DNA of 64,000 bases from Luteitalea sp. (GTDB lineage Bacteria > Acidobacteriota > Vicinamibacteria > Vicinamibacterales > Vicinamibacteraceae). Numbering within the stretch: position 1 is the first letter of the stretch; each line of letters starts with the position of its first letter. A program made the position numbers and the translations under genes. Positions 40,659-59,397 of the stretch are shown piece by piece. Below the pieces are notes generated by a model, which saw only the letters and a program-made list of their open reading frames with translations, was not told the DNA's origin and made no database searches. The DNA lies in assembly GCA_009377605.1 (NCBI GenBank), contig WHTT01000024.1, positions 1 to 64,000 on the forward strand, written 5' to 3'.

Positions 40659-40711
40659 GGCGATTCCTCGAGTGTGGCCCTGGAGCGCCGACCAAGTCCG
40701 GGGACTTGCGA

Positions 40712-40972
40712 CTAGCGCTGAAGAGCGGCGACGTCGCCGATGGGCAGGTCGAACACGAGTGCCCAAAAGTTCGCGGAGCGGGGAGAGAGATGGCGATCGG
40801 TGCGGAGCACGTCCTGGATCTGCTCCCTGCTGAACACTCGGGTGAGCCAAGCCACGTCTTCTTCCTCCCCACGTTCCAGAACCCGCTCGATGGTGTAGCG
40901 CGGGTGGGCGGCGGGACGAAAATCCTGAGGATTCACATCCCAGAACAATGGCCGCAAGTGGTTTGGAATCAT
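40712..40972 (-). CDS. DUF6922-like partner (putative antitoxin) of the AbiEii protein
   Basis: The protein has 86 residues from the ATG at 40972, with a GTG at 40990 as alternative. LRPLFWDVNPQDFRPAAHPR, YTIERVLERGEEEDVAWLTR, then LSPRSANFWALVFDLP are typical of the small helical proteins encoded just before AbiEii-like toxins. The 53-nt gap and same strand support an operon. The antitoxin role is inferred from the pairing. Confidence 0.75.
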   Translation of the reverse strand: MIPNHLRPLFWDVNPQDFRPAAHPRYTIERVLERGEEEDVAWLTRVFSREQIQDVLRTDRHLSPRSANFWALVFDLPIGDVAALQR

Positions 40973-42578: not shown

Positions 42579-43039
42579 TCATTCGAACCGGTACAGCTTG
42601 ACCCGGAGGATTGAAGCCTCGGGAGCGTTGAAGCGCAGAGCGGTGCCCGTCTGCTTGCTGGCGGCCTGCGTCTCCATGTCGTAGGAAATCATGATTGCGT
42701 CACCGTTGAGGGTGCGACCAGGAACCCATTGGCCGCTCTGGTAAACCCCCTCCTCCACGGTGGCGAGTCCGACCGTCTCGTCCGCGTTCGTCCGAGAGGC
42801 GAACGTGACCTGGATGGAACCGCCAAGCACGACGAACTCATCGGGGCCGGTCTGCATCATGACGGCGTAGCCCTGCGCCGGCAGATCCGACGGATCCCGG
42901 CGATTCGTCACGAGCGCGGGCGTCAGAATGTAGTCTCCCATCTCCACTTTCGCGCTTGGATTTTCCTGCGTGAGCGACACGCCGCGGATCGTGCCGGCCG
43001 CCTGATGCTCCAGAATCTGCGGCGCAACCGCCTGCCGCT
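42579..43039 (-). pseudogene. C-terminal fragment of a DUF5597 glycosidase (GH35/GH42-like)
   Basis: From the junction the frame reads APQILEHQAAGTIRGVSLTQ, then PDEFVVLGGSIQVTF, ATVEEGVYQSGQWVPGRTLN, and it ends ILRVKLYRFE. This is the C-terminal DUF5597 domain found at the end of beta-galactosidase-like TIM-barrel enzymes. The catalytic domain is missing, and the fragment lies out of frame behind a TonB receptor fragment on the same strand. Confidence 0.65.
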
Positions 43040-44871
43040 GCATTCGCGTATGCGTAGCCCGTATCCAAGGGGTTATTCGCGTTGGTGCCGAAGTTGAAAG
43101 CTCCAAAGGGAGATCCACCCTGCGTCCCCATCTCGCGAGAATTACGTTCAAACGAAACGCCAAATTTCAGATTGTGGGACCCGCGGACGATGGAGAAGCG
43201 ATCGCTAATGAGTATCGTTTGGAAGGACGACTCGAACGGATAACGGTCGAGATACTCGAGGGTTGCGGGCGTCCCTGGGACGCCTCCAAACTCTGCCCAC
43301 GGCAGCAGGTCGAGCGGTTTACCCTCTGGAAACAGGGAGCCTGCGGTGAAGCCTGCCGAATCCCTCTGATTACGAGCCAAGGCGTCGGCGGGGCTTGTTG
43401 TATCGAAGTTGCTCCGCGTCCATCCGACATGGAACTCGTTCAGCACTGTAGGCGACAAGACACGTGTATAGCGCACAGAAGATGTCTGGTCGAGGGAATC
43501 GCCGTTTGTCGGCAACTGTGGCCAGTTCGCACGGCCGGGGCCCGTGCTCGATCCCGTCGCGCCCGTGTAAGATACTGTCAAAAAGTTGTTGGAATTGAAG
43601 TTGTAGTCAATCTTCAGGGCGTCATAACGGCTCTTGTTGCTCGTGGGGAATTCGCTGACGAAGTGATAGTTGCCGCCCGAAATGTTATCGTCGAAGAAAT
43701 TCGGCTCCGGAAAGGCATTCAAGAGAGCCAAACCGCTCGAGTCCAGCTGGCTTCGAGGAATCCTGTTTCCCGCATACGGCTCTTGCGTCACCGGGTCTGT
43801 CACCGTGATGAGGTTCCCGTCGAGGTCGAACGATTGAGAGAAGTCTCCCTGCCGCTCGAGCACCGTCGGCACCTTGACTTGGTCGATGTCGACGCCTTCG
43901 CGAGGCCAATGTTCCTGACTGAAGAAGAAGAATAACTTGGATTTGTCCGTATTGAACTTTCCGGGAATGTAAATCGGGCCGCCCAAATTGTATGTCCACG
44001 TGTTGTACCTGTACCGCGGCTTGTCTCTTCCTTCCCGATTATCGAAGAAGTTCGTGGCATTGAACTGCTCATGGCGTGTGAAGTAGGAGCCAAGCCCGTG
44101 AAAATCCCTGGTCCCGGATTTGGTCACGACTTCCACGTTGGCTCCCGACAGGCGGCCATACTCTGCCTGATAGTTACTGGTTAAGATCTTGACTTCTTCG
44201 ATCGAATCCACACTGACGTTAGCGAAGTGCTCTGCCGGATAGTCAGTGCTGGTAATCGGTGTGCCGTCGATCGTGATGTTGTTGGTGGTATTGCGCATAC
44301 CAAGCGCATTGAAGCTCACTCTCGCTCCTGGCTGTGCCGGATTCGAGAAGTTCACGATGCCAGGCACCAGCTGCACGAGGGTCTTGAAGTCGCGCCCCAT
44401 GTTGCTGAGGTGGGCAATCTGAGAAGTGGAAATCGACAGGGAGCGTTCGCCGCTCTGAGTCTCCACGACTGCACTCTTGGCCGAGACGGACGCAACCTCT
44501 GAAAGTGCACCGACTTGCAGGACGATGAGTCCGACTGGATATCGTTGGCCAGTCTCCACAACCACGCTCTTTCTCTCGGCTGTCGCAAACCCGTCCTTGG
44601 CGACGGTGAGGAAATACTCTCCGGCTTCAAGCGCCGTATACACGAATGTGCCGTCCGAGCCGGTGACTGTCGTGCGTTGCCGGCCGGTCGCCACTTGTGT
44701 CAGCGTCACCGCGGCTTCGGGTATCGCAGCGCCGCTTGCATCCTGAACTGCGCCCGACATGGAGCTGGTGATGAACTGTGCAAACCCGACGCTCGCCAAT
44801 GGCGAGAGCAGTAAGAAGAGCGCGGCCAACGGCGAGACCGTGGACAAGAGAACCCGTAGAGGAGAGCTCAC
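43040..44871 (-). pseudogene. Oar-like TonB-dependent receptor, 3' truncated
   Basis: It has a GTG start with AGGAGG six bases upstream and a signal peptide ending GFAQ. A carboxypeptidase-regulatory-like domain follows (SGAVQDASGAAIPEAAVTLT), then a plug domain (FKTLVQLVPGIVNF, NTTNNITIDGTPITSTDYPA, IEEVKILTSNYQAEYGRLSG) and the first barrel strands to about residue 610 (PLDTGYAYAN). It then breaks into a DUF5597 fragment in another frame. Intact relatives in this window have 1081-1183 residues, so the second half of the barrel is lost and it cannot form a pore. Confidence 0.85.
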
Positions 44872-45219: not shown

Positions 45220-45248
45220 TTGACAGACTCTCGGCGAAGTACTAGAAT
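45220..45248 (+). promoter_or_regulatory. Promoter of the TonB receptor-TPR-CRTAC1 operon
   Basis: TTGACA (45220-45225), an exact 17-nt spacer and TAGAAT (45243-45248) make one of the strongest sigma-70-like matches of the window. The leader to the ATG at 45363 is about 107 nt. Confidence 0.65.
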
Positions 45249-45362
45249 CCACTCTCAATTCTCAAACGCGTGAGGTGGATCCACACGCCAGACGAGGTCG
45301 TCGGGCGAGGCGGACGGGACGCGCCTTCGCGATCGCCACCGGTAGCCGAGGGGGAGGTTCCG

Positions 45363-48300
45363 ATGCAGGGATGCGGTCGTCTTCTAGCGTTGCTGGTCGC
45401 GTTCGTGGCGCTGGCTGCCACGGTGTGGGGCCAGAGCTTCAACGGCGCGATCACCGGTGTCGTCACCGACACGAGCGGCGCCGTCGTGCCAGACGTGGCG
45501 CTCACGCTCCGGAACCTCGCCACCGACCAGGTCGTCGGCGCGACCGTCTCCGACCCTGACGGGGCGTACGCCTTTCGCAACCTGACGCCCGCCAGCTACG
45601 AGCTGCAGGCCATCAAGCCCGGCTTCCAGGAGGTGGTGGTGCCGGGCATCGAGGTCACGCTGAGCTCCCTGCAGCGCATGGACATCGAGCTCCAGGCGAG
45701 CGGGCAACAGGAGCGCGTGGAGGTGACCGCGTCCCCCTCGGTGCTGAGCTACAACAGCGGCACACAAGCGCACGGCATCACGCCAGAGACCCTCCAGCAG
45801 CTTCCGCTGCTCTTTGGCTCCGGTCCGCGCTCGGCGGCGACCTTCGCCACCTTGATGCCGGGCGTGTCGACAGGAGGACGCGCGAACGCCTTCGACGCGA
45901 GGATCAACGGCGGCCTGCAGTCGGGCGACGAGGCGACCCTGGACGGCGTCAGCATGCAGCAGGGCTTCATGAGCCAGGGCGGGATGGTCTCCATCTTTCA
46001 GGACTTCCCGATGTCGCCGGACATGGTGAGCGAGGTGAAGGTGCTCACCTCCAACTACGCGCCCGAATACGGCAACTCCACCTCTGGACAGATCATGGCG
46101 GTCACCAAGTCGGGCGGCAGCGATTTCCATGGCGCGCTGTTCGAGTACCACCGGAACGATGCGTTGAACGCGACGCAGTGGGGGGCTGATCACAAGGCGC
46201 CGCTCGAGCGCCACAACTTTGGCGCGAACATCGGCGGACCGGCAAAGGTGCCCGGGCTCTGGGGGGACCGCTGGCAGACCTACTTCTACTTTGACGCCGA
46301 AGGGTACCGACAGAAAGGTGGAACGAATCTTCCCACCATCTCCATCCCCTCAATGGCGCAGCGCAATGGCGACTTCAGGGACTGGCGCGACTCGAGCGGC
46401 CGGCTGATTCCCATTTTCGACCCTGCCACGTTGCGGCCCGACGGTCAGGGCGGCTTCACCAAGGACCAGTTCATGGGCTGCGACGGGCGGACGCCAAACG
46501 TGATCTGCCCCGATCGCATCAATCCCATTGTCCGGTCGTGGCTGGACGCGCTGCCGACCCCCACCAACGGCCAGGCGCTGAACAACTACCAGCCGCCGGC
46601 GCCGATTCCGGACACGATTCTCGGCGATTCGAACTACTACCTCGGACGCGTCGACGTGCAGGTCGGCGCGAACAACCACTTCTTCGCGAGCTTCTGGCAT
46701 CAGCGCGCACCCGCCAAGTTTCTGTCGTTGCTGCCGCAATCTGTCGCCAACGAGACGTATTCCGATCCCCAGAACTCGTGGGTGAACCGGTTCAACTATG
46801 ACCGTATCTTCACGTCCAGCGTGCTCAATCACTTGTCGATGGGGTACCTGAACCGAAACGAGGGCTACGGCTGCGTCAACCAGGGCTTCGTCGGCGACTT
46901 TCCGCAGATTGAAGGCGTGGCAGGCTACAACGTGCCCCCGCAGATCGAATTCTCCGACGACTACGAGCAGCTTGGCTGCAACGCCGGTGTCAACGTGGGC
47001 AATGTGACGACGCGCCCGACGTTCATCATCAACGACATCGTCACATGGATGAAGGGCAGCCACACCGTGAAGATCGGGATGGAGTACCGCAGCATCATGG
47101 GAAACATCCACACCAACAGCAACCTGGCGGGCGCGTTCTCCTTTGGTCGCGGCTCGACGGGCCTCCTCGGCGTCAACAGCGGCAGCCCCATCGCCAGCTT
47201 CCTCCTGGGCGCGGTGGACAGCGGCGACGTGACCTATTACGACGTCAGCACGACCTACGCGCGGCAGTCGGCGTGGGTCTTCCATGCTGGCGACACCTGG
47301 CGGATTGGCAACAAGCTGACGCTCGACTACGGGTTGCGGTGGGACTACTTCTCGCCCTCTCGCGAGAAGTATGACCGCTTCTCCTTCTTCGACCCGGAGG
47401 GGGCCAATCCCGGCGCCGGCGGGCGGCCAGGGCGCCTGGCGTTCGCCGGCGACGGCTACGGCGCGGCAAGCTATGGCGCGCCCTACCCGGAGGAGCCGTG
47501 GTACGGGGGCTTGGCACCGCGGCTGGGCGCTGTCTATGCCCTCAACGAGAAGACGAACGTCCGCGCGGGATGGGGCGTGTTCTTCACGCAGGCCTTCTAC
47601 CCCGGATGGGGCGGCGGCATGTCACAAGACGGCTTCTCGAACAACGTCACGTTCAACACCTCGCTGGGCGGCATCCGGCCGGCCTTCTTCCTAGACGAGG
47701 GGTTCCCGCAGAACTTCCAGGCGCCGCCGATCATCGAGGCCGATTACCGCAACGGCCAGGACATCCTGTATCGACCGATCGATGCCAACGAGCGTCCCTA
47801 CGCGCACCAGTGGAACCTCACGGTCGACCGCGAGCTTCGCGACGACCTCGCCCTGACTGTCGCCTACGTGGGCACGCTCGGTCGGCGGCTTCCCTCGAGC
47901 ATCGAGCCGTTGAACGCGCTCGACCCGGCGCTGCTCTCGATGGGCTCGGCGCTCTACGACGAGTTCGAGCCGGGCATGACGAGCCTCCATGGCGTGCAGG
48001 TGCCCTACGCAGGGTGGGCGGAGCAGATGGTCGGCTGCGCGCCATCGGTGGCACAGGCGCTGCTGCCGTATCCGCAGTACTGCAGCAACCTGCAAGGCCT
48101 CAACGAGAACTACGGCGAGTCCAGGTACCACTCGCTGCAGATGAAGCTCGAGAAGCGGTTCTCGGGGGGCACCTACGGACTCGTCTCTTACACATTGTCC
48201 AAGACCGTCTCGAGTGGGTCTGACAACGTCCAGCGGGGAAACGCGGCGACAGCAAACGACGCACAGGGTGTCATCTCGCCGTTCGAAAGAGAGCGCAACG

Positions 48301-48914
48301 AAGCGATCACCGTGGACGATACGCCGCACGTCCTGTCGGCCGCGTTTGTCTATGAGCTGCCGCTCGGACGGGGTAGGCGGTACCTGAACGATAGTCGCCT
48401 GGCCGATGCGCTGCTCGGCGGATGGCAGGTCAGCACCATCTTCCGCTATTCCTCCGCGCTGCCGTTCTTCTTCCGCTCCGGCTTCTGCAACGTTCCCGAT
48501 CAGTTCCAGGCCGCATGCATCCCGGCGATCCAGGACGCCTCTGCAGTCTTTGGCCAGGATCCGGGAAGCTTCGATCCGGGGGAAGGGCCGCTCTTCAATC
48601 GCGATGCGTTCGAATCAGAGGACGCGTTCAACTTCTATTACGGGCAGGGCAACCGCATTGAAGAAGAGATTCGGGGATTTTCCTATCGCAACCAGGACCT
48701 TTCCTTGATCAAGAACACGAGGTTGCCGGGCAACACGAACCTCCAGATACGCATAGAAGTGTTCAATCTCTGGAACTGGCACATGTTTACCGACTCGGGC
48801 GCGTACGGCAGCTCCGCCTTCAACACGGATCTCGCGAGCCCGGACTTCGGTGTGTGGAACGGGGCGGTATCGGACCCGCGGAACATCCAGGTGGCGGCGC
48901 GCTTCGAGTTTTGA
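45363..48914 (+). CDS. Oar-like TonB-dependent receptor
   Basis: The protein has 1183 residues. It has a signal peptide (LLALLVAFVALAATVWGQ), an N-terminal Ig-like carboxypeptidase-regulatory domain (GAITGVVTDTSGAVVPDVAL), a plug (PLLFGSGPRSAATFATLMPG, SEVKVLTSNYAPEYGNSTSG) and a long barrel ending in the outer-membrane type terminal Phe (IQVAARFEF). Such receptors import large substrates or act in surface functions in Acidobacteria. The stop overlaps the next start as TGATG. It heads an operon with two TPR proteins and a CRTAC1 protein. Confidence 0.93.
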   Translation: MQGCGRLLALLVAFVALAATVWGQSFNGAITGVVTDTSGAVVPDVALTLRNLATDQVVGATVSDPDGAYAFRNLTPASYELQAIKPGFQEVVVPGIEVTLSSLQRMDIELQASGQQERVEVTASPSVLSYNSGTQAHGITPETLQQLPLLFGSGPRSAATFATLMPGVSTGGRANAFDARINGGLQSGDEATLDGVSMQQGFMSQGGMVSIFQDFPMSPDMVSEVKVLTSNYAPEYGNSTSGQIMAVTKSGGSDFHGALFEYHRNDALNATQWGADHKAPLERHNFGANIGGPAKVPGLWGDRWQTYFYFDAEGYRQKGGTNLPTISIPSMAQRNGDFRDWRDSSGRLIPIFDPATLRPDGQGGFTKDQFMGCDGRTPNVICPDRINPIVRSWLDALPTPTNGQALNNYQPPAPIPDTILGDSNYYLGRVDVQVGANNHFFASFWHQRAPAKFLSLLPQSVANETYSDPQNSWVNRFNYDRIFTSSVLNHLSMGYLNRNEGYGCVNQGFVGDFPQIEGVAGYNVPPQIEFSDDYEQLGCNAGVNVGNVTTRPTFIINDIVTWMKGSHTVKIGMEYRSIMGNIHTNSNLAGAFSFGRGSTGLLGVNSGSPIASFLLGAVDSGDVTYYDVSTTYARQSAWVFHAGDTWRIGNKLTLDYGLRWDYFSPSREKYDRFSFFDPEGANPGAGGRPGRLAFAGDGYGAASYGAPYPEEPWYGGLAPRLGAVYALNEKTNVRAGWGVFFTQAFYPGWGGGMSQDGFSNNVTFNTSLGGIRPAFFLDEGFPQNFQAPPIIEADYRNGQDILYRPIDANERPYAHQWNLTVDRELRDDLALTVAYVGTLGRRLPSSIEPLNALDPALLSMGSALYDEFEPGMTSLHGVQVPYAGWAEQMVGCAPSVAQALLPYPQYCSNLQGLNENYGESRYHSLQMKLEKRFSGGTYGLVSYTLSKTVSSGSDNVQRGNAATANDAQGVISPFERERNEAITVDDTPHVLSAAFVYELPLGRGRRYLNDSRLADALLGGWQVSTIFRYSSALPFFFRSGFCNVPDQFQAACIPAIQDASAVFGQDPGSFDPGEGPLFNRDAFESEDAFNFYYGQGNRIEEEIRGFSYRNQDLSLIKNTRLPGNTNLQIRIEVFNLWNWHMFTDSGAYGSSAFNTDLASPDFGVWNGAVSDPRNIQVAARFEF

Positions 48915-49921
48915 TGTGCCTCACGTCACACGCCGGAACAGACGCCCTGCTGAAGATGCGCACGTGGATCGTGCTCGCGGCGCTGCTCTTCCTGGCAACG
49001 CCGCGCGCCCAGACGCAACCGCAATCACCGGCTCTGCTGGACGTTGAGCGGTTCGGCGCCCGATCTACGCTGCGCGTGCCAGACATCCCCCGCAAGGAGG
49101 ACGTCAACCGTGCCATCCACGCGCGCGACTGGGCGCGTGTCGAGCGTCTGCTGGTGGAGGAGATCGACCGTCGTCCGAACGCTCCAGAAGTCCTCAAGCT
49201 TCTCGCGCGCGTGTTCTTGATCGACCAGAAGCCGCTCAACGCCGCGATTGCCATCAAGAAAGCCGAGGCGCTCGCGCCCCTCGATGAGGAAACGCGGTAC
49301 ACCCTCGTGCTGGCCTACGTGGCGATTGAGCGGCACGATTGGGCGCGCGCCGAGCTCAATCGCCTGGTCGCCTCGGACTCCGATGACCCCAGGTATCAGT
49401 ACTGGCTCGCACGACTCGATTACGACGGCGGCTTGTACGCCTCGGCCATCGAGCGGCTGGAGGGCGTCATCGCTCGGGATCCCGATTTCATCCGTGCGCA
49501 CGACAACCTGGGTCTCTGCTACGAGGCGCAGAATCGGCCGGACAAGGCGATTGTGCACTACCACAAGGCCATCGACCTGAACCGCCGGGCGGCGACGAAA
49601 TCAGTCTGGCCGCCACTGAATCTGGCCGTGTTGCTGCGCAGTCGCGGCGAGCTCGGCGAGGCCGAAGCGCTGCTGCGAGAGGCGGTTCGATACGACCAGG
49701 CCTCGCCGCGCGCACACTACGAGCTGGGACGCGTATTGGAAGAGTTGGAGCGCGCGGACGCCGTGGAGGCGTTGCAGCGTGCCGTGTCGCTCGACGCGTC
49801 GTATCCTGATCCGCACTACGCTCTGGCGCGAATCTATCGCGTGCAAGGGCGCGCGGAGGAGGCGCGTCAGGCGCTTGCGACCTTCAAGCGGCTCGACGCC
49901 CAGCAGGAGGCGAGACCGTGA
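48914..49921 (+). CDS. Exported TPR-repeat protein
   Basis: The TGATG overlap at 48912-48916 favours the ATG at 48914. An ATG at 48956 (MRTWIVLAALLFLATPRAQ) gives a cleaner signal peptide and may be the true start. The mature part has about seven TPR pairs (PDFIRAHDNLGLCYEAQNRP, VWPPLNLAVLLRSRGELGEA, PRAHYELGRVLEELERADAV). It is periplasmic or lipid-free secreted. Its stop overlaps the start of the next TPR gene (GTGA). It presumably scaffolds the receptor or the CRTAC1 protein. Confidence 0.88.
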   Translation: MCLTSHAGTDALLKMRTWIVLAALLFLATPRAQTQPQSPALLDVERFGARSTLRVPDIPRKEDVNRAIHARDWARVERLLVEEIDRRPNAPEVLKLLARVFLIDQKPLNAAIAIKKAEALAPLDEETRYTLVLAYVAIERHDWARAELNRLVASDSDDPRYQYWLARLDYDGGLYASAIERLEGVIARDPDFIRAHDNLGLCYEAQNRPDKAIVHYHKAIDLNRRAATKSVWPPLNLAVLLRSRGELGEAEALLREAVRYDQASPRAHYELGRVLEELERADAVEALQRAVSLDASYPDPHYALARIYRVQGRAEEARQALATFKRLDAQQEARP

Positions 49922-51507
49922 CGGTACGCAGGCTCGTCGTGCTCCTATCGCTGCTGGTCGCGGCGGCCTCGGGAGCGGAGGCTCGGCAAGCGACACCGGC
50001 GGCCGCTCCGGCTGCGGCGGCGCCGCCGGCGACGTTGCAGCGGATTGCAGATCTTGTGGGCGGCGACGATCTCGCGGGCGCCAAGGCGGCGGTCGACGCC
50101 GCCCTCGCGTCCTATCCCTCGGACGCCGCGCTTCGCAACCTCGCCGGCGTGGTTAGCGCACGCCAGGACGCCTATGTCGCTGCCGAGTCGCACTTCAAGA
50201 CGGCTATCCGCCTCGCGCCGCACGCGGCAGCCGCGTATGAGAACCTTGGCCGCTTGTATCAGGAGCGGTCGGGCGTAGACGATGCCGCACGGGCAAAGGC
50301 GATCACGACCTATCGGCAGCTTCTTCGCGTCGATCCAACCAACCTCGAGGGGCTCTATCAGGCGGCATTCCTGCTCGCCCTCGAAGGCCAGTTCGCAGAA
50401 TCACGCGAGCTCATCGGCCGGCTGCCCGACGATGTGCGGGAGCGACCGCAAGCGCTGGTGGTGCTGGCGGCCGATCTGGCAGGACTCTCGGACGGTGCGG
50501 CCGCAGCCAAGGTGGTCTCCAGACTGGCCGCGCATCGGGATCTGTCCGCAGAGGATGTCACGAGCGTGCTACCGGCGCTCGATCGCGCGTCCGACGACCG
50601 GGCCGCGCAAGCGTTGTTCGAGGCACTCGATGGTCGTGGTCTGGCGACGCCTCAGCTGTTACATCGACTGGGTCGGATCCACGCGGGACACGGCCGGTTT
50701 GCCGAAGCCAACGCGGTGCTCGACCGTGCCGCGGGCGGGGCGCCGTCGGTGCCGATCCTGCTGGACCTGGCGCGCGTGAACGACAAGCTGGGCGAGAGCC
50801 AGCGAGCCCTTGGGTACGTCGCGCACGCGCGGGCGCTGGATCCGGACAACGCCACCACGCACTTCCTCTTCGGCGTCATCTGCGTGAAGCTCAATCTCGG
50901 CGCGGAGGCCTACGACGCGCTCACGAAGGCCGTCGCGCTCGAGCCCGATAACGCCCTCGCGAACTACGCCCTTGGCGCGGTCGCGATCCATCGTCACGAC
51001 CCGTCCGAGGCGATCACGCATTTCGAGACGTACGTCCGGCTCGTACCGGATGATCCGCGTGGCAAGTTTGCGCTCGGTGCCGCGCGCTTCTACAGCAATA
51101 TGTTCGATGAAGCACGGCAGGATCTCGTGCAGGCGACGCAAGCCCCCGAGACCGCCGCGGGTGCACATTATCTGCTGGCGCGAATTGCGCGTCAGACCAA
51201 CAATCTGGACAGGGCCAGGCGGGAGCTGGACGAGGCGCTCCGGGCAAACCCGGACTACGCAGATGCCTGGGCCGAGCTCGGGCTCGTGCGCCTTCGGATG
51301 CGGCGCTACGCGGAAGCAGAGCAATCGCTCGAGAGAGCGCTCGCGATCGATGCGGAGAACCATGCGGCTACACTGCACCTGGCGGCGCTCTACGCCCGCA
51401 CGAAGGATCCGCGGCAGGAAGAACTGAAGCGGCGCCTGAAGGTTCTGCAGGAGAAGCGCGCCGACGCGGCCCAGGATTTCCTGAGGATCATCGAGGTGGT
51501 GCCGTAG
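49918..51507 (+). CDS. Exported TPR-repeat protein, larger
   Basis: The protein has 529 residues with a GTG start. The signal peptide (LVVLLSLLVAAASGAEARQ) is followed by an Ala/Pro linker and about ten TPR units spread over the whole length (RNLAGVVSARQDAYVAAESH, AHYLLARIARQTNNLDRARR, AWAELGLVRLRMRRYAEAEQ). It is translationally coupled to the previous TPR gene and followed after 59 nt by the CRTAC1 gene. This layout recurs in Acidobacteria, but the purpose is not established. Confidence 0.9.
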   Translation: MTVRRLVVLLSLLVAAASGAEARQATPAAAPAAAAPPATLQRIADLVGGDDLAGAKAAVDAALASYPSDAALRNLAGVVSARQDAYVAAESHFKTAIRLAPHAAAAYENLGRLYQERSGVDDAARAKAITTYRQLLRVDPTNLEGLYQAAFLLALEGQFAESRELIGRLPDDVRERPQALVVLAADLAGLSDGAAAAKVVSRLAAHRDLSAEDVTSVLPALDRASDDRAAQALFEALDGRGLATPQLLHRLGRIHAGHGRFAEANAVLDRAAGGAPSVPILLDLARVNDKLGESQRALGYVAHARALDPDNATTHFLFGVICVKLNLGAEAYDALTKAVALEPDNALANYALGAVAIHRHDPSEAITHFETYVRLVPDDPRGKFALGAARFYSNMFDEARQDLVQATQAPETAAGAHYLLARIARQTNNLDRARRELDEALRANPDYADAWAELGLVRLRMRRYAEAEQSLERALAIDAENHAATLHLAALYARTKDPRQEELKRRLKVLQEKRADAAQDFLRIIEVVP

Positions 51508-51566
51508 CGAGGGCTTCAGGCCCTTGGGCGCGCAGACGTCGAAACTCCAGGCTTCAGCGTACGCCT

Positions 51567-53408
51567 ATGTGTCGGTTGCCAACGGCTCTCGCGATTCTTC
51601 TCGCACTGGCAGGTCTGGCGGCTCAAGATGTGCCGCCGACCAAGGGCGCTCCTCCTGCGTCTGCGCACGCCGCGCCAGACGTGCGCTATGTCGACGTCAC
51701 GGATGACGCCGGGCTCTCTGGGTTTCGTCACGTGTCGGGTGGCGCAGAGAAGGACTACATCATCGAGACCACGGGCTCGGGCGTGGCGATGGTCGACTTC
51801 GATCGTGACGGCTTCCTGGATCTCTACTTCGTCAACGGCTCGTCGCTCGACCGGATGCGTCAGGGTGTGAGTGCGCCGAAGGCCGCGCTCTTCCGCAACA
51901 CCGGTGACGGCACGTTCCGCGACGTGACGGACGAGGCCGGTGTGGCCAACGAGCGTTGGGGACAAGGGGTCTGCGCGGGAGATTTCGACAACGACGGTGC
52001 TCTGGACTTCTATGTCACGAACGTCGGGCAGAATCGCTTGTACCGCGGCACTAGCGGGACGGCCTTCGTTGACGAGGCGGTGGACGCGAAGGTCGGCGTG
52101 GACGGCTGGTCGACGGGATGCGCCTTCGGTGACTACAACGGCGATGGGTGGCTCGACCTGTATGTTGCCGGTTACGTGGACCTGGACATCGCGGCGCTTC
52201 CCCCTGTGCCGGAGCGCAGCACGGCAGGGGACGCGGGGAAGGCGCCCACGGCAGCTACGCCTGCGACCTCCCAGGGCCGCGGAGTCGGCATGGGCGCCTC
52301 GTACTCGGCGGACGCTGCCGTCTGCACTTACCGAGGGGTGCCGGTCATGTGCGGCCCCCGCGGGCTGAAGGGTGCGCGTGATTATCTCTTCCGCAACAAC
52401 GGCGACGGCACGTTCACCGATGTCACGCGTGAGGCGGGTGTGTGGGCCGAGCCCGCACGCTACGGACTGGGGGTCGCCTGGTTCGACATGGACAATGACG
52501 GGCAGCTCGATGTGCTGGTCGCCAACGACTCTGGTCCGAACCATCTCTTTCGCAATCTTGGCACGGGGCGCTTCGAGGATGTGAGCTACGTGTCCGGTGC
52601 GGCGCTCGACGGCGACGGCCGGTCGCAGGCGCACATGGGCGTTGCCATCGGCGACTTCGACAACGATGGTCACGACGACATTCACATCACGAACTTCGCG
52701 GACGACTTCAACGCGCTCTACCGCAATCATGGCGACGGAAGCTTCACGGAGGTGAGCGCCAGGTTCGGCGTCGCGGCGGCGTCGATTCCCTTCCTCGGCT
52801 GGGGCACCCACTTTGTCGACTACGACAACGACGGCTGGCGCGATCTCCTGGCGGTGAACGGACACGTGTATCCGGCGGCGGACGCCCTGGAGTGGAACAA
52901 CTCGTATGCGCAGCGCGCCTTGCTCTATCGCAACCTCGATGGTAAGAAGCTCGAGGAGATCGGATCGGCTGCCGGGCCGGCGCTCCTCGAACCGCGGGCA
53001 GCTCGCGGGTCCGCCGTTGGCGACTTCGACAACGACGGCGGAGTCGATGTTGCCGTCAACACGCTCGACGGCCCGCCGCTCGTCGCGCGGAACGCGGGCG
53101 ATGGTCGCGGTCACTGGCTCACGGTGGAGCTCCGCGGCGACCCAGAGCAGCAGTGTCCGAGGGACGCCATCGGCTCGGTGGTGTTCGTGACCGCCGGCAA
53201 ACGCCGGCTCCGTGGCGAGGTCGCGAGTGGGCGCAGCTACCTGTCACAGTCGGACCTGCGGGTGCACTTCGGTCTCGGCGCGGCCACCACGATCTCGCGC
53301 ATCGAGGTCCGCTGGGCGAACGGTCCTGCCGAGACGTACCCAGGACCAAGCGTCGATAGCCTGGTCGTGGTCGATCAGGCGCGTGGTGTGCTCTCCGGCA
53401 ATCGGTGA
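51567..53408 (+). CDS. CRTAC1-like FG-GAP protein with ASPIC/UnbV domain
   Basis: The protein has 613 residues. It has a signal peptide (LPTALAILLALAGLAAQ), a phrase typical of the family start (YVDVTDDAGLSGFRHVSGGA), calcium-binding propeller loops (VDFDRDGFLDLYFVNG, GDFDNDGALDFYVTNVG, GDYNGDGWLDLYVAGYVD, GDFDNDGHDDIHITNFAD) and a C-terminal ASPIC/UnbV domain (LRGEVASGRSYLSQSDLRVH, then FGLGAATTISRIEVRW). It is a surface or periplasmic propeller, last in the receptor operon. The biological role is not known. Confidence 0.92.
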   Translation: MCRLPTALAILLALAGLAAQDVPPTKGAPPASAHAAPDVRYVDVTDDAGLSGFRHVSGGAEKDYIIETTGSGVAMVDFDRDGFLDLYFVNGSSLDRMRQGVSAPKAALFRNTGDGTFRDVTDEAGVANERWGQGVCAGDFDNDGALDFYVTNVGQNRLYRGTSGTAFVDEAVDAKVGVDGWSTGCAFGDYNGDGWLDLYVAGYVDLDIAALPPVPERSTAGDAGKAPTAATPATSQGRGVGMGASYSADAAVCTYRGVPVMCGPRGLKGARDYLFRNNGDGTFTDVTREAGVWAEPARYGLGVAWFDMDNDGQLDVLVANDSGPNHLFRNLGTGRFEDVSYVSGAALDGDGRSQAHMGVAIGDFDNDGHDDIHITNFADDFNALYRNHGDGSFTEVSARFGVAAASIPFLGWGTHFVDYDNDGWRDLLAVNGHVYPAADALEWNNSYAQRALLYRNLDGKKLEEIGSAAGPALLEPRAARGSAVGDFDNDGGVDVAVNTLDGPPLVARNAGDGRGHWLTVELRGDPEQQCPRDAIGSVVFVTAGKRRLRGEVASGRSYLSQSDLRVHFGLGAATTISRIEVRWANGPAETYPGPSVDSLVVVDQARGVLSGNR

Positions 53409-53445
53409 GCGGGTTATGACGTGGTGTAACCGGAAAGGTGACCGT

Positions 53446-54891
53446 GTGAACAAACCACAGGAAAGGCCTGGACGCACGATGAGTCGCCGGGAGGCGCTCC
53501 GGCTGACCGGAGCGGTCATGGCCGCCCCTCTGGTCGCCGGCCCCACGGCGTCGTTGCAAGCCCGCAGAACAAAACGGGTGGTCATCATCGGGGGAGGCAT
53601 CAGCGGTCTTTGCACGGGCTACGAGCTGGCGAAGCGCGGTCATGACGTCACCGTCCTGGAAGCCAGTGGGCGGCCCGGAGGTCACGTTCGCACGATTCGT
53701 GATCCGCTGGCCGACGGGTTGTATGCAGACGGTGGCGCGGAGCACTTCACTCGGCCTGGATACGAGCGGTTCTGGGGCTACGTCCAGGAGTTCAATCTAC
53801 CGGTGTCGCACTGCGCCCAACGTGACGAGACTTCCCGTTACATCGAAGACCGGTGGTATGCGGAAGAAACGTTGCACGATGCTCGCGTTCTGGAGCAGAT
53901 GGGTTTCAATCAGAGGGAACGCAAATATCTGGCGGACCATCCGTGGCCGGAGCTGGGCCTGCTCTATTACCAGCCCTATCTGGACCGTTTCACGGACGAG
54001 TATCGTCCTTTCGAAGCCGGGCTCGACGAGCTGGACGACATTTCCATTAGCGATCTGCTCGAAAAGGATGGCGCTTCAGCGGCCGCAATCAATTACTTGG
54101 GCGGGCCCAGCTCGGCCCTGCACGTCTTGTGGCATGCCGCCATCCTTGCACTTCGTGGCGTCGCGCTCTTCCCGCAAGAGGTCTTTCGCATCACCGGCGG
54201 CAATCAGCGCATGACCGACAGCTTCGCCGAAAGGCTGGGCGACAGTCTGTTACTGGGCTGCCCCGTGAGCGCCATCGAGCACGGCAACACAGGGGTAACG
54301 GTTACCTACAGCGGCTTCGGCCGGACGAGACAGTTGGAAGCGGACTATGCAGTGGCCTGCATCAATCTCTCGATGCTCCGGAAGATCTCGGTCACACCCG
54401 CGTGGCCGCAGAGCAAGAGCTACGCGATCCGGAACGTTCCGTACTATTCCAACACTCGTATCATCTTCCAGTCCCGGAGCCGCTTTTGGGAAAGAGACGA
54501 GTTGAGCCCGAACCGGGCGCTCGGGCAGCCTGGCCTCTCCACTGTCTGGCAAATGGCTGCGGAAGTGGAGACGGGAAGGGGCTTACTGGAAGGCGCAGCG
54601 CCCGGCGTCGTCTCGGCGGAGCAAGCGCTGAAGACCTTTCGGGGACTCTATCCCGGGAAATCAGAGAACATCGAGCAGGCGTACGTCGTCAACTGGGCGC
54701 TGGACCCCTGGGCCGCGCTGTGTGAGACGACGCTTTACGCCCCGGGGCAGCTTCGCAGAATCTGGCCGCACGTGATCGAGCCGGTCGGGCGAATCTACTT
54801 CGCCGGCGCGTATGCTGACAATCTGAATTGGGGGATGGAAGCCGCCACGAGATCTGCCAATCGGGTGGCTGATGCCATCAACGAAGCTTAA
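53446..54891 (+). CDS. Tat-exported FAD-dependent amine oxidase-like protein
   Basis: The protein has 481 residues from the GTG at 53446; an ATG at 53479 is the alternative. SRREALRLTGAVMAAPLVAG is a twin-arginine signal. The dinucleotide fold is VVIIGGGISGLCTGYELAKR, then GHDVTVLEASGRPGGHVRTI. The C-terminal FAD motif is RIYFAGAYADNLNWGMEAAT. It belongs to the flavin amine oxidase / protoporphyrinogen oxidase-like group. It lies 37 nt behind the CRTAC1 gene and may be co-transcribed. Substrate unknown. Confidence 0.88.
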   Translation: MNKPQERPGRTMSRREALRLTGAVMAAPLVAGPTASLQARRTKRVVIIGGGISGLCTGYELAKRGHDVTVLEASGRPGGHVRTIRDPLADGLYADGGAEHFTRPGYERFWGYVQEFNLPVSHCAQRDETSRYIEDRWYAEETLHDARVLEQMGFNQRERKYLADHPWPELGLLYYQPYLDRFTDEYRPFEAGLDELDDISISDLLEKDGASAAAINYLGGPSSALHVLWHAAILALRGVALFPQEVFRITGGNQRMTDSFAERLGDSLLLGCPVSAIEHGNTGVTVTYSGFGRTRQLEADYAVACINLSMLRKISVTPAWPQSKSYAIRNVPYYSNTRIIFQSRSRFWERDELSPNRALGQPGLSTVWQMAAEVETGRGLLEGAAPGVVSAEQALKTFRGLYPGKSENIEQAYVVNWALDPWAALCETTLYAPGQLRRIWPHVIEPVGRIYFAGAYADNLNWGMEAATRSANRVADAINEA

Positions 54892-55125: not shown

Positions 55126-57051
55126 GTGTCCAGCACGCGGCGTCTGACGGTCGCGCAGGCGATTGTCGAGTTTCTCGTTCAACAGCACACGCGTCGCGAC
55201 GATGTCGAACAGCCGTTGTTCGCTGGCGCCTTCGCCATCTTCGGCCATGGCAACGTCGCCGGGCTGGGAGCGGCGCTCCTGGAGCGGACCGATCGGCTCC
55301 GCTGCATCCTCCCGCGCAACGAGCAGGCGATGGTGCACAGCGCTGTCGGCTTCGCCAAGATGCAGAACCGGCTCCAGGCGATGGTGTGCACCACCTCGAT
55401 CGGCCCCGGCGCGACCAACATGATTACCGGCGCGGCCGTCGCGACGATCAATCGGCTCCCCGTGCTGCTCCTGCCGGGCGATCTCTTCGCCACGCGCGCG
55501 CCCGCCCCGGTGCTTCAGCAGCTCGAGTCCGCGCAGTCGCAGGACGTGTCGGTCAACGACTGCTTCAAGCCAGTCTCGCGGTACTGGGATCGGATCAACC
55601 GGCCGGAGCAGGTGATCGCCGCGCTCCCTGAGGCCATGCGCGTGCTGACGTCCCCTGCCGAAACCGGCGCGGTGACGCTCTGCCTGCCGCAGGACGTGCA
55701 GACCGAGGCGTTCGATTTCCCCGAGGCGCTGTTTCGCAAGCGCGTCTGGACGATCCCACGTCTCCGGCCGGACGCGACGCTGCTCGCCGAGGCCGTCGCG
55801 CTGCTGCGGCAGGCGACGAGGCCGGTGATCGTCGCCGGCGGCGGCGTGCACTACAGCGGCGCCATCGACAGCCTCCGCGCGTTTGTCGACGCCACCGGGA
55901 TCGCCGTCGTCGAGACGCACGCGGGCAAGGGCGCGCTGCCGTACGACCATCCACAGGCGCTCGGCGCCGTCGGTGTCACCGGCACGCCGGGCGCGAACCG
56001 TCTCACGCGCGAAGCCGACGTCGTGCTCGTGGTGGGCTCGCGCCTCAGCGACTTCACGACCGCGTCGAAGAGCGCGTTCCAAAATCCGGCCGTGCGCTTC
56101 ATCGGCCTCAACGTCACCGAGCTCGATGCAGGCAAGCACCAGGCGCTGCCGCTCGTCGCCGATGCGCAGGTGACGCTCGACGAGCTGCGCCCCGCGCTCG
56201 CCGGATGGGAGACCTCCGCCGCGTACCGCGAGCAGGTCACGCGCGACCGTCTCGACTGGGAGCAGGAGATCGATCGGATCGTCGCGGGCCAGCAACAGGC
56301 GGACGAGCTTGCCGCCATTCCATCCGATCGGCAGGGCGCGGAGGCTGGGCGTCGTGCCATCAGCCAGGGCGAAGTCATCGGCCTGCTGAACGGGTTCGTC
56401 GGGCCGCGTGACGTCATCATCAACGCGGCGGGCAGCCTCCCGGGCGATCTCCACAAGCTCTGGCGCGCGCGCGATCCGAAGCAATATCACCTCGAATACG
56501 GCTACTCCTGCATGGGCTACGAGATCGCGGCGGGCCTGGGCGTGAAGCTGGCGGCCCCGGATCGCGACGTCTACGTGCTGGCGGGCGATGGCTCCTACCT
56601 GATGATGGCGCAGGAGATCGCGACCGCCGTGCAAGAGGGCATCCGTCTGACGATCCTCGTGCTGGACAACCACGGATTCGCGAGCATCGGGGCGCTCTCC
56701 GAATCTGTCGGCGCGCAGGGCTTCGCGACGGAGTATCGCTATCGGACCGAGTGCTCCGACCGGCTCGACGGGCCGCCCGTGCAGGTGGACTTCGCGGCCA
56801 ACGCGGCCTCGCTCGGCGCCCACGTGTGGCGCGCCGAGTCCCGCGACGCGATCCGTGAGGCGCTGCAGGCGGCCAAGGCGACGGAGGAGGGTGTCACGGC
56901 TATCGTCATTCCTGTCGATCGGCACGCGCAAGTCGGCGGACCGCCCGTGTGGTGGGACGTACCCGTCGCCGAGACCTCCACGCTCGCCAGCGTGCAAGAG
57001 GCGCGCGCACGCTACGTCGCCGCGCGTGCGCAACGCCGCTTCTATCTCTAG
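55126..57051 (+). CDS. iolD: 3D-(3,5/4)-trihydroxycyclohexane-1,2-dione hydrolase
   Basis: The protein has 641 residues, with a GTG start and GAGGAGG upstream. The thiamine-diphosphate enzyme layout is complete. The pyrimidine domain has the catalytic Glu in ILPRNEQAMVHSAVGF (E66). The central domain is at about 215-350. The cofactor domain has LAGDGSYLMMAQEIATAVQE with the Mg-binding GDG and downstream DNHGF. QPLFAGAFAIFGHGNVAGLG is a strong IolD signature. It opens the ring of the diketone in myo-inositol breakdown. Its stop lies in a large hairpin shared with the convergent lacI gene. Confidence 0.95.
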   Translation: MSSTRRLTVAQAIVEFLVQQHTRRDDVEQPLFAGAFAIFGHGNVAGLGAALLERTDRLRCILPRNEQAMVHSAVGFAKMQNRLQAMVCTTSIGPGATNMITGAAVATINRLPVLLLPGDLFATRAPAPVLQQLESAQSQDVSVNDCFKPVSRYWDRINRPEQVIAALPEAMRVLTSPAETGAVTLCLPQDVQTEAFDFPEALFRKRVWTIPRLRPDATLLAEAVALLRQATRPVIVAGGGVHYSGAIDSLRAFVDATGIAVVETHAGKGALPYDHPQALGAVGVTGTPGANRLTREADVVLVVGSRLSDFTTASKSAFQNPAVRFIGLNVTELDAGKHQALPLVADAQVTLDELRPALAGWETSAAYREQVTRDRLDWEQEIDRIVAGQQQADELAAIPSDRQGAEAGRRAISQGEVIGLLNGFVGPRDVIINAAGSLPGDLHKLWRARDPKQYHLEYGYSCMGYEIAAGLGVKLAAPDRDVYVLAGDGSYLMMAQEIATAVQEGIRLTILVLDNHGFASIGALSESVGAQGFATEYRYRTECSDRLDGPPVQVDFAANAASLGAHVWRAESRDAIREALQAAKATEEGVTAIVIPVDRHAQVGGPPVWWDVPVAETSTLASVQEARARYVAARAQRRFYL

Positions 57052-57123
57052 TGCGGTGTCTCCGAAATAGCTTGGCATTCGGCCGCCCTCGGTGCACAAG
57101 CTATTTCGGAGACACCACACTAG
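57048..57123. terminator. 27-bp-arm hairpin between iolD and lacI-type gene
   Basis: The arms 57048-57074 (CTAGTGCGGTGTCTCCGAAA then TAGCTTG) and 57097-57123 are reverse complements with one mismatch, around a 22-nt loop. The left arm includes the iolD stop codon. It could act as a bidirectional terminator for the convergent genes, or be a small palindromic mobile repeat ending in CTAG on both sides. Confidence 0.7.
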
Positions 57124-57135
57124 ACAGGCGCGCCG

Positions 57136-58179
57136 CTACCGGCCGGGCTTCGCGCCGCGACCGGCGCGCAGGTGATAGCCGCACGACTCGCGGATGAGCA
57201 GCGACGTCTTCAACACGACGGTCTTGAAGCCGCGCAGCCTCTTCTGGCCCTCGGGCGGGTCGAGCGTGTTGATGAGGAGCTCGGCCGCCGCCTGTCCGAT
57301 CTCGTACTTCGGAAGGTTGATGGTCGTCAGCCGCGGCGAGAACGCCTCGAGCCACGGGTGATCGTCGCACGTGACGAGGCCGATGTCGTCAGGGCAACGG
57401 ATCTGGTATTGGCGCAGCGCCGCCATGAAGCCGACGGCGCTCATGTAGTTTGCGACGAACACGGCGTCCGGCTTCCGCTTGAGCAGCGTGATGCCGGCGT
57501 CGTAGCCCGCCTCGACACGGAAGTCGCCGGACACGACGAGGTCTGGATCGACGGCGAGGCCGCCCGCCTCGAGCGCCTCCTTGTAGCCGACGAAGCGGCG
57601 CCGCGATGTGCTGACCTGCGGGCCGTTCAGCATGGCGATCCTGCGATAGCCGAGACGCACCAGATGCGCCACGGCTTCGTACGCGCCGCCCTCTTCGTCG
57701 ACTGTCACCACGTCGGAGCGGAGGCCCATGCCGAAGCGCATCAACTGGACGAGCGGCACGCCGAGCGTCTTGATCTGCTCGGCGACGTCGACGGGGATCC
57801 GGCCGCGAGCCTTGGTCAGCAGGATCCCATCGACGCGCTTGGCGAGGAACAGCCGGAGGGACTGCGCTTCCTTCTCGGGGTCGTCGTCGCTGTTGGCGAG
57901 CAGCAGCTCGTAGCGGCGGCTGCGCGCGCCGTCTTCGACGCCCCGGACGACGGCGGGCCAGAACGGGTTGGCGATGTTGAGGGCGATCATGCCGAGCGTC
58001 TGGGTCCGCTGGCGTGCGAGGCTGCGGGCGACGAGGTTGGGCTGGTAGTTGAGCTCGTGGACCGCGCCGGTGACGCGCGCCTTGAGAGCGGGGCTGACGT
58101 AGGCCGTGTGGTTGAGGACGGCGGAGACGGTGGCCGTCGAGACGCGGGCGCGCTTGGCGACATCGAAGATCGTGGCCAT
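57136..58179 (-). CDS. LacI-family transcriptional regulator of the inositol-type locus
   Basis: The protein has 347 residues. The HTH is TIFDVAKRARVSTATVSAVL, then the hinge helix LVARSLARQRT. The periplasmic-binding-like effector domain reads TLGMIALNIANPFWPAVVRG, VDGILLTKARGR, and ends with the family phrase VVLKTSLLIRESC. It lies between iolD and iolB, divergent from iolB. AAGCGCTT palindromes lie before its own start and before iolD, iolB and the TonB receptor, so it most likely represses them until an inositol-type ligand binds. Confidence 0.93.
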   Translation of the reverse strand: MATIFDVAKRARVSTATVSAVLNHTAYVSPALKARVTGAVHELNYQPNLVARSLARQRTQTLGMIALNIANPFWPAVVRGVEDGARSRRYELLLANSDDDPEKEAQSLRLFLAKRVDGILLTKARGRIPVDVAEQIKTLGVPLVQLMRFGMGLRSDVVTVDEEGGAYEAVAHLVRLGYRRIAMLNGPQVSTSRRRFVGYKEALEAGGLAVDPDLVVSGDFRVEAGYDAGITLLKRKPDAVFVANYMSAVGFMAALRQYQIRCPDDIGLVTCDDHPWLEAFSPRLTTINLPKYEIGQAAAELLINTLDPPEGQKRLRGFKTVVLKTSLLIRESCGYHLRAGRGAKPGR

Positions 58180-58230
58180 CGTCAGCCTCCAGGCTAGCGA
58201 CGCATTCTAGCAAGCACGGGGCGCGCTTGC

Positions 58231-58240
58231 AAAGCGCTTA
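58231..58240. promoter_or_regulatory. LacI-type operator site 2 (before lacI-type gene)
   Basis: AAAGCGCTTA lies 52 nt before the regulator start. It pairs with site 3 at a centre distance of about 212 bp, flanking the promoter at 58318. Confidence 0.6.
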
Positions 58241-58317
58241 GCTCCGGGGCCGCTCTGGCGCCGACGGCGCGTGCGCGCGGCGGTTGACCACGCGCGGCAG
58301 GGGAGCGGCAGGGGCGG

Positions 58318-58348
58318 TTGACAACGAACGGCACGGCGGGCGTATACT
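58318..58348 (+). promoter_or_regulatory. Candidate iolB promoter
   Basis: TTGACA (58318-58323) and TATACT (58343-58348) are both near-consensus, but the spacer is 19 nt, longer than ideal. It lies between operator sites 2 and 3. Confidence 0.5.
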
Positions 58349-58437
58349 AGCGACCCACGCGCCAGGACTGCCCACCACGGGCGCTCGCGGCGTTGTCGTG
58401 CCGCGCGCGCTGCTGCCGCCGGCCGCGGCATCCGCGT

Positions 58438-58457
58438 CCAGCGAAGCGCTTCGCTGG
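58438..58457. promoter_or_regulatory. LacI-type operator site 3 (before iolB)
   Basis: CCAGCGAAGCGCTTCGCTGG is a perfect 20-bp palindrome, the longest of the five sites. It lies downstream of the iolB promoter and 56 nt before its start codon, where a bound repressor would block transcription. Confidence 0.7.
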
Positions 58458-58512
58458 CGAGCCCGCGCAGGCGTGGGGCACCGAGGAGGCAGGCGTTGGA
58501 GGATTCAGGCGC

Positions 58513-59397
58513 ATGACGAACAGTCGTTCCCTGCTACGCTCGCGCGCAGCGCGCAATGGATCGGGCACCCTCGTGGCGGTGACGCCGGAGCGAGCTGGCT
58601 GGGACTACGTGCACTTCGCGGCACGCCGCATCGCGGCCGGCGACCGGTGGGCGGGACGGACGGGCGGAGATGAGGTCTGTCTCGTGCTGCTCCGCGGCGA
58701 GGCGGTCGTGACCTGCGCGTCCGCCCGATCGGGGGCAGTGCCCGCGAAGCCGGTGCGGCTCGGGCCGCGGCGCGACGTGTTCAGCGACTATCCGCACGCG
58801 CTCTACCTGCCGCGGGGCACGCGCTTCGAGGTGCGCGCGCGGCGCGCGACCGAGATCGCCGACTGCCGGTCGCCCACCGATCGCCGAAACGATGCGTTCG
58901 AGATCCGGCCACAGGATTGCGGGCTCGAGGTGCGCGGCGGCGGCAACGCCACGCGCCAGATCATCGACATCCTGCCGCCGTCGGCGCCGGCCGATCGCCT
59001 GCTGATCTGCGAGGTGTTGACCCCAGGCGGGAACTGGTCCAGCTATCCGCCGCACAAGCACGATCGGCATGCCCCGCCAATCGAGGCGGCCCTCGAAGAG
59101 ACGTACTACTTCCGATTCGCGCAGCCGAACGGCTTCGGCTATCAACGCCTGTACAGCCCCGACGGCCGGCAGGACACGGTGCTGCGCGTGACCCACGGTG
59201 ACCTCGTGCTCGTACCGGAGGGCTATCATCCGTTCGTTACAGCGCCGGGCTACGATGCCTATTACTTGAACGTGCTGGCCGGCAGCATCCGCTCGATGGC
59301 GGCGTTCGACGATCCGCGCTACGCGCACGTGCGTGCGAATTGGCCCCCGGCCGATCCGCGGGTGCCCATGGTCCCTCCGCCGGGTGTTCAGCCATGA
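58513..59397 (+). CDS. iolB: 5-deoxy-glucuronate isomerase
   Basis: The protein has 294 residues. The start at 58513 has GGAGG about ten bases upstream. The bicupin fold carries the metal site SSYPPHKHDRHAPPIEAALE followed by ETYYFRFAQPNGFGYQRLYS, with His, His and Glu, and the last His in VPEGYHPFVTAPGYDAYYLN. These are diagnostic for IolB, which isomerises 5-deoxy-D-glucuronate (the IolD product) to 2-deoxy-5-keto-gluconate. The presence of iolD and iolB together identifies the pathway. Confidence 0.95.
   Translation: MTNSRSLLRSRAARNGSGTLVAVTPERAGWDYVHFAARRIAAGDRWAGRTGGDEVCLVLLRGEAVVTCASARSGAVPAKPVRLGPRRDVFSDYPHALYLPRGTRFEVRARRATEIADCRSPTDRRNDAFEIRPQDCGLEVRGGGNATRQIIDILPPSAPADRLLICEVLTPGGNWSSYPPHKHDRHAPPIEAALEETYYFRFAQPNGFGYQRLYSPDGRQDTVLRVTHGDLVLVPEGYHPFVTAPGYDAYYLNVLAGSIRSMAAFDDPRYAHVRANWPPADPRVPMVPPPGVQP

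Follow-up and report, generated by a model that had tools for sequence, protein, structure and literature searches.

A conserved TonB receptor, TPR, CRTAC1 and FAD enzyme gene set in Luteitalea as a possible SusD-less counterpart of SusCD loci

Introduction

SusC-SusD pairs are importers, and the SusC/SusD loci of the Bacteroidota offer the first point of comparison for the genes described here. In this study, we analyze a 64,000-nucleotide stretch of DNA from the acidobacterium Luteitalea sp. (GenBank assembly GCA_009377605.1, contig WHTT01000024.1, positions 1 to 64,000; hereafter the window), in which five genes at 45220-54891, all on the + strand, encode in order a TonB-dependent receptor (TBDR), two tetratricopeptide repeat (TPR) proteins (TPR1 and TPR2), a CRTAC1-type protein and a flavin adenine dinucleotide (FAD) enzyme. 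We show that these five genes form a genuine unit, conserved and under selection, which belongs to a widespread and little-described kind of module. Our preferred reading, to which we give a probability of roughly one half, is that it is a SusCD-like carbohydrate uptake cluster with the TBDR as channel, the TPR proteins in the place of SusD, CRTAC1 for capture and the FAD enzyme as a dehydrogenase.

The unit shares with SusC/SusD loci a receptor built from a CarboxypepD_reg extension (PF13620), a plug recognized by eye and a barrel, as well as an exported helical partner encoded adjacent to it; moreover, in the bacteroidete Segetibacter, CRTAC1 lies directly after SusD. It differs in that the barrel is of the PF25183 kind, that no glycoside hydrolase (GH) lies inside the unit, and that no SusD/RagB protein stands beside the receptor, two TPR proteins without a visible lipobox being found in its stead. 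The receptor also has the parts of the Oar subclass of Myxococcus xanthus, namely a signal peptide, the PF13620 extension, a plug region with a TonB-box-like VEVTA motif (both by eye) and a barrel; this domain plan, including the PF13620 N-terminal extension, is described in PMC6434023. In contrast to Oar, the receptor here has a PF25183 barrel, and its genetic partners are TPR and CRTAC1 proteins. The CRTAC1-type protein joins an FG-GAP propeller to an ASPIC domain like other members of the CRTAC1/ASPIC-UnbV family such as murine CRTAC1 (9etn), from which it differs in being bacterial and encoded alongside a receptor and TPR proteins. An ASPIC/UnbV gene is included in a paralogue table of Solibacter (PMC3174227) and multiple ASPIC/UnbV copies are reported for Poribacteria (PMC3909097). 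In a literature search made mostly outside subscription journals, we found no published description of the TBDR/TPR/CRTAC1 set.

Results

Layout of the unit

The Pfam families and the coordinates of the open reading frames give the following features.

45220..45248, + strand: sigma-70-like promoter, TTGACA-17-TAGAAT, 11/12 consensus matches
45363..48914, + strand: TBDR, 1183 aa; PF13620 N-terminal extension, plug-like region (by eye), PF25183 barrel
48956..49921, + strand: TPR1, 321 aa; Pfam TPR families, hydrophobic N-terminus by eye
49918..51507, + strand: TPR2, 529 aa; Pfam TPR families, all-helical AlphaFold model
51567..53408, + strand: CRTAC1-type protein, 613 aa; FG-GAP propeller and UnbV_ASPIC domain
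53479..54891, + strand: FAD enzyme, 470 aa; Tat-type export, amine-oxidase superfamily PF01593

An earlier note on this DNA had proposed a five-gene unit with a strong promoter and with all its products predicted outside the cytoplasm, and each of these points held: all five genes were found on the + strand, the promoter is well matched, and signal peptides on the TBDR, TPR1, TPR2 and CRTAC1 as well as a Tat motif on the FAD enzyme could be called by eye. Three promoter-like sites (≥9/12) occur in 12.5 kb, against 1.5 expected from shuffles, and the one at 45220 scores best; in the congeneric genome G001 it reads TTGACA-17-TAAAAT, within a promoter block that is kept while the flank just upstream has diverged. 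The intergenic gaps are 41, -4, 59 and 70 bp, and these short distances together with the single conserved promoter suggest that the five genes would be read from one transcript.

The likely starts are ATG 45363 for the TBDR, preceded by GAGGGGGAGGT, ATG 48956 for TPR1, GTG 49918 for TPR2, ATG 51567 for CRTAC1 and ATG 53479 for the FAD enzyme. Overlapping starts had been described at two junctions; the GTGA overlap between the end of TPR1 and the start of TPR2 is present, and the TGATG comes from an in-frame ATG at 48914, ahead of the likely TPR1 start. The receptor had been called giant, but its size is ordinary: comparably long open frames encode most of the PF25183 receptors in these genomes. 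The barrel is an OMP_b-brl_4 domain (PF25183, 563.9 bits) behind the CarboxypepD_reg extension, and the Pfam Plug family was not called for the region identified as the plug by eye.

Conservation of the set

In congener G001 all five genes occur in the same order with 87-94% identity, together with the promoter and with other flanking genes. The ratios of nonsynonymous to synonymous substitution (dN/dS) between the window and G001 are 0.13 for the TBDR, 0.29 for TPR1, 0.28 for TPR2, 0.27 for CRTAC1 and 0.18 for the FAD enzyme, at dS of 0.20-0.27, and therefore all five genes are under purifying selection, as had been proposed for the unit. More distantly, in a metagenome-assembled genome (MAG) from another family of the order (G014), one contig carries the TBDR (66%) and TPR1 (55%) and breaks off within TPR2, and a second contig begins with the rest of TPR2 (59%). 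There, one further TPR gene comes next, then a CRTAC1 gene on the opposite strand, the CRTAC1 most similar to that of the window (68%) and the FAD gene (56%); we infer that the two contig ends join. The opposite-strand gene (L046:2135-4090), a second CRTAC1, thus separates the TPR genes from the more similar CRTAC1. In a Solibacter MAG (L092), CRTAC1 (38%), TBDR (44%), TPR2 (38%) and TPR1 (37%) lie on one strand with a convergent FAD gene (55%), and locus L094 combines TPR2 (59%), a TPR gene with 29% identity to TPR1, CRTAC1 (64%) and the FAD gene (58%). Across G001, G014 and L092, the identity of the TBDR falls from 94% through 66% to 44% (1203 columns), and that of TPR1 over the whole alignment from 88% through 52% to 34%.

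A receptor profile search of 396 genomes of the phylum gave matches at E ≤1e-150 in 20 genomes, among which ten TBDR relatives, the window included, reach at least 900 bits, the next locus scoring 658. Seven of these ten have a TPR1 relative beside them (the window, L143, L145, L147, L148, L149 and L150) and seven a TPR2 relative (the window, L143, L144, L147, L148, L149 and L150); CRTAC1 adjoins six (the window, L143, L147, L149, L150 and L151), and the FAD gene only the one in the window. At L146 no partner gene was found, but its contig ends 476 bases past the receptor. The detailed neighborhood comparison took 10 loci without L150 and L151, which were read separately. Gene order and strand vary among distant loci, so that the genes appear as a functional set more than as a fixed operon. 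The earlier note would have been refuted had the genes not been conserved together; instead, the comparative neighborhoods keep the set in G001, G014 and L092.

Many copies in related genomes

The unit is one specialized copy of a kind of module that Luteitalea-related acidobacteria carry many times. The genome from which the window comes has 18 UnbV_ASPIC domains, and 13 stretches were read around the other 17. A TPR gene adjoins CRTAC1 in eight of them (L001, L003, L004, L005, L007, L009, L011 and L013), and a receptor is present in seven (L001, L003, L004, L005, L007, L009 and L013). Two one-contig genomes, G002 (by its labels of the same family as the window and another genus) and G003, allowed proximity to be set against its expected level. 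A receptor lies within 6 kb of 10/16 CRTAC1 genes in G002 (7/11 clusters; 11% expected) and of 5/9 in G003 (3/6 clusters; 9% expected), and a TPR unit lies within 2 kb of 6/16 in G002 (6/11 clusters; 3.4% expected). The pieces of receptor matches were merged by hand into 56 units in G002 and 40 in G003, and since the family searches in G002 scored 61 of 83 receptor candidates and 150 of 498 TPR candidates, both the observed and the expected proximities are underestimates.

A sister module stands to the right of the unit, with a receptor at 59797-63042 followed by an AP_endonuc_2 enzyme, a pyrroloquinoline quinone (PQQ) dehydrogenase, a 10-repeat TPR protein and CRTAC1; its later genes are at L013:3086-9820 (contig C24 63085-69819), and in it the quinoprotein replaces the FAD enzyme.

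The place of SusD

The SusD_RagB family (PF07980, the only SusD family searched) is absent from the genome of the window and gave one weak match in one of 60 surrounding genomes. The link to SusD came through Segetibacter koreensis (G423), reached via a relative of the FAD enzyme (locus L114) beside which the genes run SusC-SusD-CRTAC1. Throughout that genome, SusD lies at most 6 kb upstream, on the same strand, of 7/11 CRTAC1 genes, compared with 1.7% expected, suggesting that CRTAC1 proteins are standard parts of many SusCD loci. As SusD precedes CRTAC1 in Segetibacter, the acidobacterial TPR genes occupy its position.

The same order bears on the main rival to carbohydrate uptake, namely that the TBDR is an Oar-type exporter which secretes CRTAC1, and perhaps the FAD enzyme too, with TPR1 and TPR2 escorting the cargo in the periplasm. 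The location of CRTAC1 genes after SusD speaks against it, SusC-SusD being importers, as do the catabolic enzymes near several relatives, which suggest uptake, and the presence of at least 61 PF25183 receptors against 18 CRTAC1 domains in the genome of the window, which would leave most receptors without a CRTAC1 cargo. In its favor, the TBDR has the PF13620 extension and the barrel, all its partners look exported, and Myxococcus Oar, of the same PF13620-extended subclass, is needed for secretion of the PopC protease according to PMC6434023. On balance we consider Oar-type export unlikely.

The TPR proteins are not relatives of SusD by family, since the Pfam matches of TPR1 and TPR2 do not include it, and no lipobox Cys was seen by eye in TPR1. 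The AlphaFold model of TPR2 is an all-helical superhelix (mean pLDDT 88) whose best structural match by VIA-align is a consensus TPR protein (Z 26.8, root-mean-square deviation [rmsd] 4.8 over 268 residues). A SusD-like fold for TPR2 found no support, as no SusD chain is among the 50 Foldseek and 50 VIA-align matches listed.

The CRTAC1-type protein

In Pfam, this protein shows FG-GAP repeats (PF13517, 2.2e-51) followed by UnbV_ASPIC (PF07593, 5.1e-17), which places it in the CRTAC1 family, and it has seven DxDxDG-type motifs. Its model (mean pLDDT 82.9) aligns with murine CRTAC1 (9etn) over 457 residues (Z 41.5, rmsd 2.4 Å). The next Foldseek matches after CRTAC1 are fungal lectins that bind N-acetylglucosamine (E 2e-9), and after them integrin heads. 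These matches of a predicted model support, without proving, a lectin role. The similarity of FG-GAP propellers to integrin alpha heads could alternatively mean that CRTAC1 works together with TPR1 and TPR2 in adhesion or sensing at the surface, with the TBDR as their anchor or signal transducer. However, the cluster contains no sensor kinase or sigma-factor gene, and the sole kinase seen near a copy is downstream in G014, and we find sensing or adhesion decidedly improbable.

The FAD enzyme

The FAD enzyme carries the Tat motif SRREALRLTG, both Arg residues of which are invariant among six aligned sequences. It shares the PF01593 fold and the FAD-binding motif with the L-amino acid oxidase/amine oxidase superfamily, and among solved structures it comes closest to L-amino acid oxidases (LAAO) and related amine oxidases (E 1e-34). 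This would fit a nitrogen or redox module, in which an L-amino-acid or amine oxidase acts on amino compounds imported by the TBDR. However, the alignment to 1f8r puts His89 at the position of the Arg of GPMR, which we take to be Arg90 of snake LAAO that binds the substrate carboxylate; across the six sequences this residue is His or Gln, the latter in one relative. Likewise, the Gly-Trp (GW) presumably found near the flavin in L-amino acid oxidases reads WG here, within a family motif DNLNWGM. Furthermore, the FAD gene is absent beside 9/10 receptor relatives, and cytochrome c-type (CxxCH) frames occur in its vicinity elsewhere. We therefore regard the nitrogen or redox module as improbable.

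We collected 41 loci of the FAD family and checked 38 for CxxCH frames, omitting L115, L116 and L117 as partial or weak matches. Such frames lie within 3.5 kb of the FAD gene in 10/38 loci, compared with three in the whole 64-kb window. A one-haem frame comes directly after the FAD gene in six of the eight Bacteroidota loci (L102, L103, L104, L107, L108 and L110) and none does in L106 and L114, and seven-haem frames lie near the gene in two gp2 acidobacterial loci (L084 and L101). Pfam confirmed cytochrome c domains for L102, L107 and L108 and did not for the frame of L110. These neighbors make a cytochrome-linked dehydrogenase more likely than an oxygen-using oxidase; hence of the label FAD oxidase, given to the gene earlier, FAD stands and oxidase is doubtful. 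The DNLNWGM family spans Acidobacteria, Bacteroidota and Verrucomicrobia and is a candidate uncharacterized periplasmic dehydrogenase.

The FAD gene adjoins TPR and CRTAC1 genes also in G001, G014, L092 and L094. CRTAC1 is nearby in 7/41 loci of the family (L077, L084, L089, L092, L094, L101 and L114), a raw count without a chance level, and two of these, L077 and L089, belong to genomes that had contributed to the query. Fixed membership of the FAD enzyme was rejected, since the relatives L068-L070 have neither CRTAC1 nor TPR genes beside them and the window has the only FAD gene among the ten receptor loci; it is a recurrent but optional member of the set.

Neighboring genes

To the right of the unit, 55126-59397 holds a catabolic cluster for inositol or a sugar acid, made up of iolD (TIGR04377, 901 bits) and a KduI/IolB gene, with a LacI regulator encoded on the opposite strand. 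As iolD is 234 bp downstream on the same strand, and further right KduI/IolB is followed by the sister module (second receptor, AP_endonuc_2, PQQ dehydrogenase, TPR and CRTAC1), the unit might belong to a myo-inositol region (iolD, LacI, IolB/KduI) and import inositol or its derivatives. However, iolD is preceded by its own ribosome-binding site, and no relative of iolD or IolB was found in the G001 stretch around the cluster; iolD was for the latter reason rejected as a sixth gene, and inositol uptake is the least probable of the alternatives that we weighed.

The earlier note had contrasted the intact unit with much broken sequence elsewhere in the window; two damaged neighbors were looked at on the left. 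A PF25183 receptor start (42838-44871, profile 1-350 of 838) overlaps, on the same strand, the C-terminal end of a GH35 enzyme (42579-43163, profile 375-510 of 510), which looks like the product of a deletion that fused two genes, and in G001 a MacB/FtsX permease gene takes the place of these fragments. Further upstream, 40014-40850 encodes a nucleotidyltransferase of the AbiEii type (PF08843) that may be one partner in a toxin-antitoxin or abortive-infection system.

Discussion

In the SusCD-like carbohydrate uptake cluster that we favor, the TBDR, assigned by its family, would be an energized outer-membrane channel, and TPR1 and TPR2, which lie in the position of SusD, may be its exported partners. 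The CRTAC1-type protein, a propeller by its fold, would bind calcium and might act like a lectin, capturing or presenting a carbohydrate or a glycoside either on the cell surface or within the periplasm. The Tat-exported FAD enzyme would then oxidize the substrate, and, to judge from the neighbors of its relatives, the electrons would probably pass to a c-type cytochrome and not to oxygen. Enzymes of carbohydrate metabolism near relatives of the unit, namely GH97 (L101), an alpha-galactosidase (L148), a 3-keto-disaccharide hydrolase (L149) and a GFO/IDH/MocA protein (L143), favor glycoside uptake.

Several observations weigh against this interpretation. The carbohydrate neighbors vary by locus and some neighbors are unrelated (a MacB permease, a penicillin-binding protein and Pirin). 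At least 61 PF25183 receptors (202 first-look candidates) make proximity alone weak evidence in the genome of the window, and 5/16 CRTAC1 genes of G002 lack both a receptor at up to 6 kb and a TPR unit at up to 2 kb. The TPR proteins are not SusD by family and show no lipobox, and TPR2 is a plain TPR superhelix. Propeller and TPR folds suit many roles, and the CRTAC1 model matches integrins in Foldseek and many WD40-type propellers in VIA-align as well. Lastly, three relatives of the FAD enzyme (L068-L070, 52-59% identity) have no CRTAC1 or TPR gene alongside.

More tentatively, and with somewhat less confidence than we place in the uptake role of this one cluster, we propose that the SusD-less Acidobacteria run a phylum-wide outer-membrane capture system in many copies. 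In it, an Oar-type receptor would have a TPR superhelix as its SusD-like partner or lid, CRTAC1 propellers would be the surface lectins, and the same kind of CRTAC1 protein would serve the SusCD systems of the Bacteroidota.

Acidobacteria are abundant in soil and have dozens to hundreds of TonB-type receptors, whose roles are largely untested. The SusD-less receptor-TPR-TPR-CRTAC1 set is a concrete candidate for the glycan capture machinery of these bacteria. It also places bacterial CRTAC1 proteins in a functional setting and links the Acidobacteria to the Bacteroidota, where CRTAC1 adjoins SusCD.

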